Below, piece by piece: positions 23,885 through 26,113 of a stretch of DNA of 51,930 nt. Origin of the DNA: an uncultured Eubacteriales bacterium. Its GTDB lineage: Bacteria; Bacillota; Clostridia; Christensenellales; Aristaeellaceae. Positions within the stretch are counted from its first letter, which is position 1, and each line of letters begins with the position of its first letter. A model generated the notes under the pieces. It was not told the origin of the DNA and searched no databases. It was given only the letters and a program-made list of their open reading frames with translations. Location of the stretch: NCBI GenBank assembly GCA_902790525.1, contig CADASI010000011.1:1-51930 (forward strand), read 5' to 3'. A program made the translations under genes and the position numbers.

Positions 23885-24154
23885 GTGTTGTTTGCACCTC
23901 CAACATGCTTCTATGCTATGCACTGTAACTCGGCGATATCGCCCGTACATAGTTTGGGCAACATCAGCGCCTTCCGCACAGGCTTCGGCGCCGGAGACCG
24001 GGGCGGTCCCCGCCTGGGTTTGACGCCTGGCGTAGCGTCAAACGAGCTTTGTGTGACAGTCGCCGGAAAACAAAGACAGACCGCCCCGGCAGGTTTGACC
24101 CTGCCTGGACGTGTTGCCTCAGTCAGCCGCACCGGCTTCCTGCCAGACTAAAAT
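23885..24154 (-). promoter_or_regulatory. Long structured 5' leader of rpsM
   Basis: About 270 bases without a gene, transcribed towards rpsM from a TATAAT at 24155-24160. It holds several hairpins: a nine-base stem GTTTGACGC...GCGTCAAAC (24018-24043), GGCAGG...CCTGCC (24088-24105), and a GC-rich stem near 23990-24010. The TTTGAC motif recurs in two of the stems. Ribosomal operons often have leaders bound by one of their own products. This one matches no class I know; it is a candidate. Confidence 0.45.
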
Positions 24155-24180
24155 ATTATACCACATCGCCAATGTCGATG
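24155..24180 (-). promoter_or_regulatory. Promoter region of the rpsM-rplQ segment
   Basis: A perfect TATAAT on the minus strand (24155-24160). The region just upstream holds an inverted repeat CATCG-N7-CGATG (24164-24180), possibly an operator. The -35 element is weak. It makes sense because the inserted gene upstream separates rpsM from the main promoter. Confidence 0.5.
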
Positions 24181-24237
24181 CTTACATATTTTGGTCTGAT
24201 TGTGTTAAATTTTGTGTCATCGTTGTTAATTTTCATA

Positions 24238-25851
24238 TCACTTCGACACCGCGAACGTCACGCTGGCCTTCTTCTTGCCGCGCTTGGTGGTGCAGGTGAT
24301 GGTGACCTTGCCGGCCTTCTTGAACTTGACCACGCCGTTTTTGACCGTGGCGACCTTCTTGTTGGAAGACTTCCATTTAAAGCCGCCGGGGTTCGCGCCC
24401 TCGTTGACAGTGGGGGTCAGGGTCACGCTCTCCCCCTTCTTCACGGCGGTGTTGACCTCGGAAATCGCCACCGCGGTGGGCAGCGTCGGGTCGGTGACGG
24501 TCAGTGTCACCTTCCGGGTCTTCTTGCCCACCTTGTAGGTGATCTTCACCTTGCCGCTCTTCTTGAACGTCACCACGCCGCCCTTGCTGACCTTCGCCAC
24601 CTTCTTGTTGGACGACTTGAACTTCTTGCCCGTCGCGCCGCCCAGATCCAGTTGGGTCTTGGAGCCCGGCGCGGCGATCACGGTCGCCCGGGTGTTCTTG
24701 GCGGTGGAGCCCGCCGCGACGGTCACCTGCGCCGCGACAGCGCCGGGCACCTCCGCAAAACCCGCGGGCACGGCGGGGTTGGTGGAACCGCCGGAGGTTT
24801 TGACCTTCGTCTTGTTGTCGTGGATAAACTCCTCGGGGGAATTCGCCCGACGAATGCCATACCACGTTGTTTTCTTGTCCTTGCTCTTATATTTCCAGCT
24901 CTTCCAGCGCGCGACAAACTGGGACTGGTTGGACAGATCCAAAACGCTCAGACTGTTGGCATTGCAGCACAGCTTTTTCAGATTGGGACAGTTATCGGCA
25001 AACACCAGCGACGTCAACTTGTTGCTCTGGCACTCCAATCTTTCCAGCTTGGGGCAGCCCGCGATGGCCAGCGATGTGAGTTGGTCGTTCCAGCAATCCA
25101 CCTCGACCAGATTGGGGCAGTTGCTGAAATCCAGCGCCGCGATCGGGAGCCACTTGCAATTCAGGCTCGCCAGGTTGGGCATGCCGCTGACGTCCAGCGC
25201 GGTCAGGCCGACAAAAGTCTTCCCGACGACGTTGTTTTCCACAATAGACAGCTTTTGCAGGCTCGTGAAGTATTTGATTCCCGTCAGATTGACGGCGCCT
25301 TTATTGTCGATTGACATCGTGACGGTCGCCGCGATTTCGCCGTCCGACAGCGCGCCGTCATGAGCGCCGCTCCTTCCGTCGATATTCTCGGAGATGTATT
25401 GCCGGAAAGCCGCGTCCGGGAAGTGCGCCTCGTCGATGGGAATGAGGTTCTCGCCCTCCATTAGCTTCGCGGATGCGTCGTTTTCCTCGACGACGACCTG
25501 CTGCGCGGGTTCCTCCGCCTGCGCCGCGGGTTCCTCCGACACAGCTTCTTTCTCCATCAGGACCTCCTCGACGCCCTCGGCCTCGAGTTCAACGTCCTCC
25601 GCGAGCTCCACGTCCGCGGCCTCCGCCACGGCGGCCTCCACGGCCTCCGACGCCACGGCCTCGACGACCTCTTCAACGGGTTCCTCCGGGATTTCCTCAA
25701 CGGCTTCCCCGACGGGCGCTTCAACGGCTTCCTCGACGATCTCCCCGACGACGGCGGGGACCTCCGCGTCGGACTCCTCCTCCATCAGCGCCGTGCCGGT
25801 CAGCAGCATTGACGCGATCAGCACAAGGGACAGCAGCTTTTTAAGATTCAT
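24238..25851 (-). CDS. Secreted acidic leucine-rich repeat protein with two Ig-like (BIG2) domains
   Basis: A 537-residue protein. A signal peptide (MNLKKLLSLVLIASMLLTG) is followed by a Glu/Val/Ala-rich low-complexity stretch (~22-125). Then come about six leucine-rich repeats (~165-310; units such as LTSLAIAGCPKLERLECQSN) and two C-terminal Ig-like domains, each with the FKSSNKKVAKV/WKSSNKKVATV motif and a lysine-rich strand. This is the plan of clostridial surface or exported proteins that bind the wall or host molecules; no sortase motif or transmembrane tail is present. It sits inside the ribosomal cluster, between rpmJ and rpsM, with its own promoter. That position is not its usual context and implies insertion. 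Confidence 0.85.
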   Translation of the reverse strand: MNLKKLLSLVLIASMLLTGTALMEEESDAEVPAVVGEIVEEAVEAPVGEAVEEIPEEPVEEVVEAVASEAVEAAVAEAADVELAEDVELEAEGVEEVLMEKEAVSEEPAAQAEEPAQQVVVEENDASAKLMEGENLIPIDEAHFPDAAFRQYISENIDGRSGAHDGALSDGEIAATVTMSIDNKGAVNLTGIKYFTSLQKLSIVENNVVGKTFVGLTALDVSGMPNLASLNCKWLPIAALDFSNCPNLVEVDCWNDQLTSLAIAGCPKLERLECQSNKLTSLVFADNCPNLKKLCCNANSLSVLDLSNQSQFVARWKSWKYKSKDKKTTWYGIRRANSPEEFIHDNKTKVKTSGGSTNPAVPAGFAEVPGAVAAQVTVAAGSTAKNTRATVIAAPGSKTQLDLGGATGKKFKSSNKKVAKVSKGGVVTFKKSGKVKITYKVGKKTRKVTLTVTDPTLPTAVAISEVNTAVKKGESVTLTPTVNEGANPGGFKWKSSNKKVATVKNGVVKFKKAGKVTITCTTKRGKKKASVTFAVSK

Positions 25852-25868
25852 GGTTCTTCCTCCTGTCT

Positions 25869-25882
25869 TGACAGAAATGTCA
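25869..25882 (-). promoter_or_regulatory. Small inverted repeat in the leader of the LRR gene
   Basis: TGACA-GAAA-TGTCA, lying between the promoter and the ribosome binding site (AGGAGGAAG). It could be an operator or a short hairpin. Confidence 0.3.
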
Positions 25883-25894
25883 TCTTGTTATCAC

Positions 25895-25923
25895 ATTTTA
25901 CCTGACGCGCGGCGGTTTGTCAA
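25895..25923 (-). promoter_or_regulatory. Promoter of the inserted LRR gene
   Basis: On the minus strand a perfect TTGACA (25918-25923) is 17 bases from TAAAAT (25895-25900). The start codon follows about 44 bases later. Confidence 0.75.
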
Positions 25924-25957
25924 TATACAAGACGTCGGGACTGGCCATTATAAACCC

Positions 25958-25984
25958 AAAAACCGCCCTCCTTGCGGAGAGCGG
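25958..25984 (-). terminator. Terminator after rpmJ
   Basis: A nine-base stem (CCGCTCTCC with GGAGGGCGG, one G-T pair, loop GCAA on the minus strand) is followed by five T. It lies 15 bases after the rpmJ stop, so the main ribosomal transcript can end before the inserted LRR gene. Confidence 0.75.
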
Positions 25985-25999
25985 CCTCGCTTGGGTCAA

Positions 26000-26113
26000 T
26001 CAGCCCTGCTTCTGCTTGTGCTTGGGATTCTCGCAAATGACCATTACGCGGCCCTTGCGCTTGATGATCTTGCACTTCTCGCAGATCGGCTTGACGGAAG
26101 GTCTCACTTTCAT
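26000..26113 (-). CDS. rpmJ: 50S ribosomal protein L36
   Basis: A 37-residue protein, [14 protein letters not shown]..., with the four zinc ligands of the C+ form (C11, C14, C27, H32). The length matches the family exactly. GGAGGTAG precedes the ATG at 26113. It follows infA by 31 bases, as usual. Normally rpsM comes next, but here an unrelated gene intervenes. Confidence 0.95.

Follow-up and report, generated by a model that had tools for sequence, protein, structure and literature searches.

The bacterial spc operon ends with rpmJ, in agreement with passages of the survey by Brandis. These passages (Brandis 2021, PMC8046335), in a paper covering 204 genomes of Proteobacteria, Acidobacteria, Firmicutes and Tenericutes, describe operon pairs as generally being parted first by a small insertion and disconnected later, and the spc-alpha pair as joined in every genome analysed. 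Part of a second paper (PMC7247131) lists an S4 r-leader of Clostridia for rpsM-rpsK-rpsD-rpoA-rplQ and names a 5' GAAA as conserved in it. The present work concerns the spc-alpha junction, between rpmJ and rpsM, in a stretch of 51,930 nucleotides (hereafter the window) from contig CADASI010000011.1 of an uncultured Eubacteriales bacterium of the Aristaeellaceae (assembly GCA_902790525.1), where a gene for a protein with leucine-rich repeat (LRR) and Big_2 domains lies between the two ribosomal protein genes. It seems to us quite probable that the alpha operon is self-standing in this family, that the junction was thereby freed and became labile, and that the LRR/Big_2 gene landed there in the window's species. 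The insertion of this gene is nothing unusual in itself; the actual discovery lies in the labile junction and the older promoter and leader that belong to it.

The locus lies on the minus strand, in the order infA, rpmJ, hairpin, promoter-like site, 537-codon open reading frame (ORF), TATAAT, leader and rpsM. Its features are:

26000-26113, minus strand: rpmJ (L36), last gene of the spc side (Pfam Ribosomal_L36, 1.9e-20)
25988-25959 (about), minus strand: terminator-like GC-rich hairpin and T run just downstream of rpmJ (strict hairpin scan and fold)
25923-25895, minus strand: TTGACA-17-TAAAAT, promoter-like, of the inserted gene (consensus match only, 11/12)
24235-25992, minus strand: stretch without a counterpart in the sister locus L061, which has 73 bp there instead (ends of blastn blocks and junction alignment)
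24238-25851, minus strand: gene for the predicted exported LRR/Big_2 protein, 537 amino acids (ORF, Pfam)
24160-24155, minus strand: TATAAT, putative -10 box of the rpsM transcription unit (TGnTATAAT in 22/22 usable genus loci)
24012-24144, minus strand: predicted structured leader RNA of the rpsM operon, two stem-loops with a conserved GCGGCUG bulge and CGCCA loop (covariance model R1)
23513-23884, minus strand: rpsM (S13), first gene of the alpha operon (Pfam Ribosomal_S13, 2.6e-35)
20808-23474, minus strand: rpsK, rpsD, rpoA and rplQ, the rest of the alpha operon (ORFs named from sequence and order)

The start of rpsM at 23884 was set by alignment with relatives, the S13 Pfam query having been the over-long ORF 23513-23950. 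With the ORF 24238-25851 intact and L36 and S13 confirmed by Pfam, a reading made earlier from the letters of the window (the sequence-only reading) had correctly placed an exported 537-residue protein gene between rpmJ and rpsM. The bin from which the window comes totals 3.7 Mb in 199 contigs. Relatives were compared and grouped by RpoA, S4 and S11; among the best 80 RpoA matches, the nearest named relatives are uncultured Clostridiales metagenome-assembled genomes, many of them ruminant, and Candidatus Faecivicinus and Pullichristensenella show 91-93% RpoA identity to the window.

Few gene neighbourhoods in bacteria are as stable as the spc-alpha junction, and its repeated parting in one family is notable. 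The class control comprised 146 genomes, requested at a completeness of at least 95%, of which 139 carried both genes (own genome excluded). In 136 of these 139, rpmJ and rpsM were adjacent, with a median gap of 127.5 bp and none of the 136 pairs above the largest gap of 430 bp, so within the class the earlier statement that these genes adjoin in most bacteria is borne out. In the other three, rpsM lay within 400 bp of contig base 1 (G474, G480) or a truncated S13 was found on another contig (G499). In the family sample, 120 genomes taken irrespective of completeness, both genes were found in 104 rows (103 genomes). Rows were contiguous in 76 cases, with gaps of 39-5077 bp, and six of them, the window included, exceeded 600 bp (0.7-5 kb between the genes). 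The remaining 28 rows were non-contiguous. Unlike the pairs in the passages of PMC8046335, those in 22/104 rows, from ten genera, were parted by at least 7 kb, as counted from gene positions and contig sizes; in G091 the two genes lie 1.9 Mb apart on a single 3.26-Mb contig. infA stayed with rpmJ in nine of ten rpmJ-side stretches fetched from parted genomes (the tenth was cut at rpmJ), and the parting therefore lies between blocks. Judged from these gene positions, the spc-alpha junction is labile in this family and has been broken repeatedly. Two rows had been dropped: G075:C56, with S13 below the cut-off, and a further rpmJ-rpsM pair in G135, divergent in sequence and with a gap of about 146 bp. 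As a side observation, the bin G080 holds two rpmJ-rpsM clusters with gaps of 144 and 218 bp (G080:C132 and G080:C51), either a duplication or a mixed bin.

The genus of the window (28 genomes) offered 18 clean junctions, whose sizes were computed by hand: nine were empty (425-590 bp) and nine carried extra DNA (735-5077 bp). In the other genomes, rpsM was damaged (G136), the genes lay on different contigs (G137, with 55 kb upstream of rpsM and rpmJ on another contig), or the junction was not placeable or a gene was lacking (eight genomes). The genus thus shows empty, filled and separated states, which resembles the entry of extra genes between operons in the passages of PMC8046335. One locus, L070 (G142:C31; rpsM at 8495), encodes an S13 without an internal stretch, in a well-conserved region, that its relatives have.

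The closest comparison is the sister locus L061, which groups with the window with support 100/98 and whose rpoA is 100% identical. Its junction measures 426 bp and holds no LRR/Big_2 gene, against 2115 bp between rpmJ and rpsM in the window; the window thus carries an insertion of less than 10 kb between operons of the ribosomal cluster that is absent in a close relative. The match between L061 and the window extends to 7 bp past rpmJ and starts again 3 bp beyond the stop of the LRR gene, with 73 bp peculiar to L061 between these points. No direct or inverted repeats of 8 to 14 bases were found between the two ends of the LRR stretch. At E<=1e-60, matches to the LRR/Big_2 protein in the genus were confined to the own genome, G120 and G121. 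The best full-length outside match, G121:C97, is 55% identical, and no S13, L36 or IF1 was found in the 8 kb fetched around it; the junction of G121 was not readable, S13 and L36 both not being found in that genome. The same LRR gene was seen at the rpmJ-rpsM junction in no relative among those searched, and distant relatives with it, the case named in advance as speaking against an insertion, did not turn up there either. Because the junction of L061 is empty and the protein comes from a dispersed paralogue family, the LRR/Big_2 gene at the junction is, on this comparison, a recent, species-level acquisition, and the earlier view of a late arrival in a core operon region holds.

If a genus or clade ancestor already had the gene at the junction and relatives then lost it, this would account for G137, a member of the same small clade in which rpsM likewise has an LRR/Big_2 gene upstream (L064/L203). 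However, the G137 protein is only about 32% identical in its best stretch, against 61% for the window's own paralogue, its context differs, with rpmJ on another contig, and the empty junction of L061 has the size of other empty junctions. This origin is quite unlikely, and it was rejected on the empty junction of L061 and its grouping with the window. Misassembly of the metagenome bin is very unlikely. The number of contigs, and a 58-base exact run common to the gene and its closest paralogue, might have pointed to it, but this run lies inside the Big_2 part, no longer exact run is shared with 29 own-genome stretches, both flanks match L061, and other bins also carry extra DNA at the same junction. 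With aligned flanks and exact repeats of at most 58 bases, misassembly was rejected as the main account of the locus.

The signals around the gene appear to be older than the gene itself. TGnTATAAT was found 235-280 bases before rpsM in all 22 usable genus loci, whether the junction was empty or filled. These were 20 loci plus L075 and L076, each with an intact rpsM start and enough upstream sequence; L105 (upstream too short) and L196/G136 (damaged rpsM; TGnTATAAT present, its position not comparable) were left out of the count. The TATAAT before rpsM is consequently not new, contrary to the sequence-only reading. That reading also pictured an operon rewired around the gene, the insertion having come first. 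A promoter-like site, the gene, a hairpin and a second -10 box are indeed all present, but the same -10 box occurs in genus loci without the insert and the leader occurs in other genera, which makes this order of events very unlikely. Since both box and leader are found in relatives without the gene, the signals of the spc/alpha boundary are, as far as such comparison tells, older than the LRR gene, which entered an existing boundary.

Within a 4-kb stretch, five promoter-like sites matching at least 9/12 positions were counted on both strands, versus a mean of 1.2 in shuffles. Among the signals proposed earlier, TTGACA-17-TAAAAT before the LRR gene is present, with 11 of its 12 positions matching as a consensus match only. 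The terminator proposed after rpmJ fared less evenly: the GC-rich hairpin with its T run is there, and in relatives 16/18 folds, by eye, place a hairpin just after rpmJ, while the strict rule is passed by a minority of them (see below). This hairpin was absent from the initial terminator listing, its stem pairing into the T tract, and is listed by the strict scan.

The leader before rpsM is predicted to be a structured RNA. RNAalifold predicted 57 pairs on 20 genus leaders, 22 of them with compensatory change. In the core motif, 17/24 pairs were changed on both sides (24 rows), none of 500 shuffles reached the observed value on any of five measures and slid versions scored lower, although this covariation test carries warnings about related rows and derived structures; the 24-pair structure itself came from single-sequence folds. 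The 24 rows (alignment A2) were hand-picked for a short second loop, a choice that favours clean pairing, from the 45 distinct rows of a loose regular-expression set, which had no match in 50 loci. RNAalifold gave only 7 pairs on A2 and none on the regular-expression set.

Covariance model R1 finds the window, which was outside its training rows, at 43.6 bits (E 3.1e-9). A family search with R1 returned 22 matches in 21/120 genomes, some of which had supplied training rows. Of these matches, 21 lay directly upstream of rpsM, and the remaining one was found 234 bases past rpmJ on a contig without detected rpsM. Eight loci, several of them close kin (L082, L083, L084, L086, L087, L089, L092 and L097), have the leader without any listed -10 pattern, in gaps of 124-218 bp, a pattern suggesting that the leader predates the private rpsM promoter.

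By its position directly upstream of rpsM, and by the full gene order read in the window, the leader resembles the S4 r-leader as listed in part of PMC7247131. The 5' GAAA named there starts 8/24 A2 rows and not the window, whose leader starts with GGCA and has an enlarged second stem-loop. No family in the Rfam copy matches the leader, and Alpha_RBS (RF00140) had no match in the window. By analogy, the leader probably belongs to the S4-leader class of Clostridia or is kin of it. Membership in Alpha_RBS was rejected, the sole match among 20 loci being L145 at 23.7 bits versus a cut-off of 38. This sub-threshold match (L145 3066-3171, E 0.27) spans the start of rpsM in a different genus of this family. 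In L203 (G137; rpmJ and rpsM on different contigs), the CGCCA loop, elsewhere near-constant, differs upstream of rpsM at 7026. Among the papers listed in a limited literature search, none dealt with this junction in these Clostridia.

Regulation of the alpha operon by one of its own products is known and is the basis for S4 as the likely ligand. In the mechanism that we favour, rpsM-rpsK-rpsD-rpoA-rplQ would be a self-standing transcription unit in this family of uncultured gut Clostridia: transcription of rpmJ would end at the hairpin, a separate promoter would drive rpsM, and the leader RNA, bound by the operon's own product, most likely S4, would probably autoregulate the alpha genes. An insertion between terminator and promoter would then do little harm and be tolerated, and the freed spc-alpha junction could gain, lose and exchange genes and be pulled apart in many genera. 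In the window's species, an LRR/Big_2 paralogue would have landed there with its own promoter and without a recognisable terminator, and read-through into rpsM may follow.

Several points weigh against this mechanism. Only 8/18 genus rpmJ hairpins pass the strict stem-plus-T-tail rule; the window passes and L061 fails. Under strict filters, the R1 leader was found in only 8/50 genera of the family, and therefore is not the explanation for every parted genus; in the order it was found in only 3/297 genomes, a count that does not settle its true range, since the window's own genome was itself missed. The contrast between class and family sets genomes requested at 95% completeness beside an unfiltered sample, and 6 of the 28 non-contiguous rows were not placed (G014, G021, G033, G076, G095 and G111), mostly for contig ends or missing sizes. 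Finally, MATE and MerR/Cass2 genes recur at or beside the junction in five and four genomes, so that some of the pattern may reflect early insertion and later loss instead of numerous gains.

In the 353 nt from the stop of the LRR gene to rpsM no recognisable terminator was found, and transcripts of the LRR gene may therefore run on into rpsM. One might suppose that the gene was kept for useful read-through or growth-coupled expression, as a working new regulatory link. The LRR gene has the same orientation as the operon, and 5/11 related LRR/Big_2 genes do have a terminator within 100 nt of the stop. Yet the other six lack one by the same rule, rpsM retains its own -10 box and leader, and the gene sits at the junction in one genome only; such a link is unlikely. 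A somewhat better case, still a speculative one, can be made for a stepwise order of autoregulatory leader, private promoter, insertions and full separation, together with read-through newly coupling the surface protein with rpsM and rpoA expression. If true, core-machinery and surface-protein expression would be newly coupled in the window's species. Leader, promoter and insertion, the probable earlier stages, survive in living relatives, so that the way in which essential operons come apart is open to direct test. The family also suggests that a block of genes becomes free to move when it has a promoter and self-regulation of its own.

The junction also holds other genes in the relatives. 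A MATE transporter gene lies at or beside it in five genomes (L063, L077, L192, L197 and L200), and MATE matches lie elsewhere in seven genomes, the window's included (surroundings L212-L218). This argues that genes move in and out of the site, and by these positions the MATE gene has moved or was replaced at the junction. The idea of many independent insertions was weakened by the same distribution, gain, loss and movement being indistinguishable. A MerR/Cass2 regulator is found at or beside the junction in four genomes, in two of them with a Y1_Tnp transposase. Moreover, G060 carries PDDEXK_2 and an MBL-fold gene with MATE, G132 carries DUF5684, and G135 carries DUF218 beside rpmJ; LRR/Big_2 is represented by the window junction and by the distant gene upstream of rpsM in G137. 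In G122, G124, G126 and G135 genes were named from one junction side only. The 285-residue ORF of L197 had no Pfam match, and the same protein from L067 had no NCBIfam match. An ORF of L071 had no Pfam match in the frame used, and MerR/Cass2 similarity was found there.

The inserted ORF matches Big_2 (8.9e-11; 42 bits, cut-off 22.8) and LRR_4 (3.5e-9; 37 bits, cut-off 27) in Pfam. With limits drawn by hand, its product has a signal-like hydrophobic stretch at residues 1-22 (judged by eye), an acidic linker to about residue 133 (39 D/E per 111 residues), an LRR region at about 134-345 and lysine-rich Big_2 domains at about 376-537. Among solved structures, internalin J is the nearest in sequence (4.2e-16, best stretch 216-311). 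The protein thus resembles internalin-type proteins with LRR and Ig-like domains, but it differs from them in its C-terminal Big_2 domains, in lacking an LPXTG-type end by eye, and in scoring 36.1 bits with NCBIfam internalin_J, below the cut-off of 1700. An AlphaFold2 model was confident only in parts of the LRR and Big_2 regions (mean pLDDT 67.8, pTM 0.43); its fold matches include internalins, LigA and S-layer proteins, with low TM-scores from a low-confidence model, and are supportive only. From domains and model, the product is probably a surface or secreted binding (adhesin-like) protein.

Its own genome contains 51 places matching this protein, the best paralogue being 61% identical and located on contig 5, and by these matches the protein is a member of a large dispersed paralogue family. 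Compared with the contig-5 paralogue over all window residues, identity is 86% in the Big_2 part and 33% in the LRR region (stretches considered: L002, L208, L003, L004 and L005); counting aligned residues only, the values are 140/161 and 70/174. Fourfold sites agree with the contig-5 copy at 59/84 in the Big_2 part and 12/26 in the LRR region. Given the 86% against 33% identity, the LRR/Big_2 paralogues look mosaic, as recombination or rapid change of the LRR part could make them.
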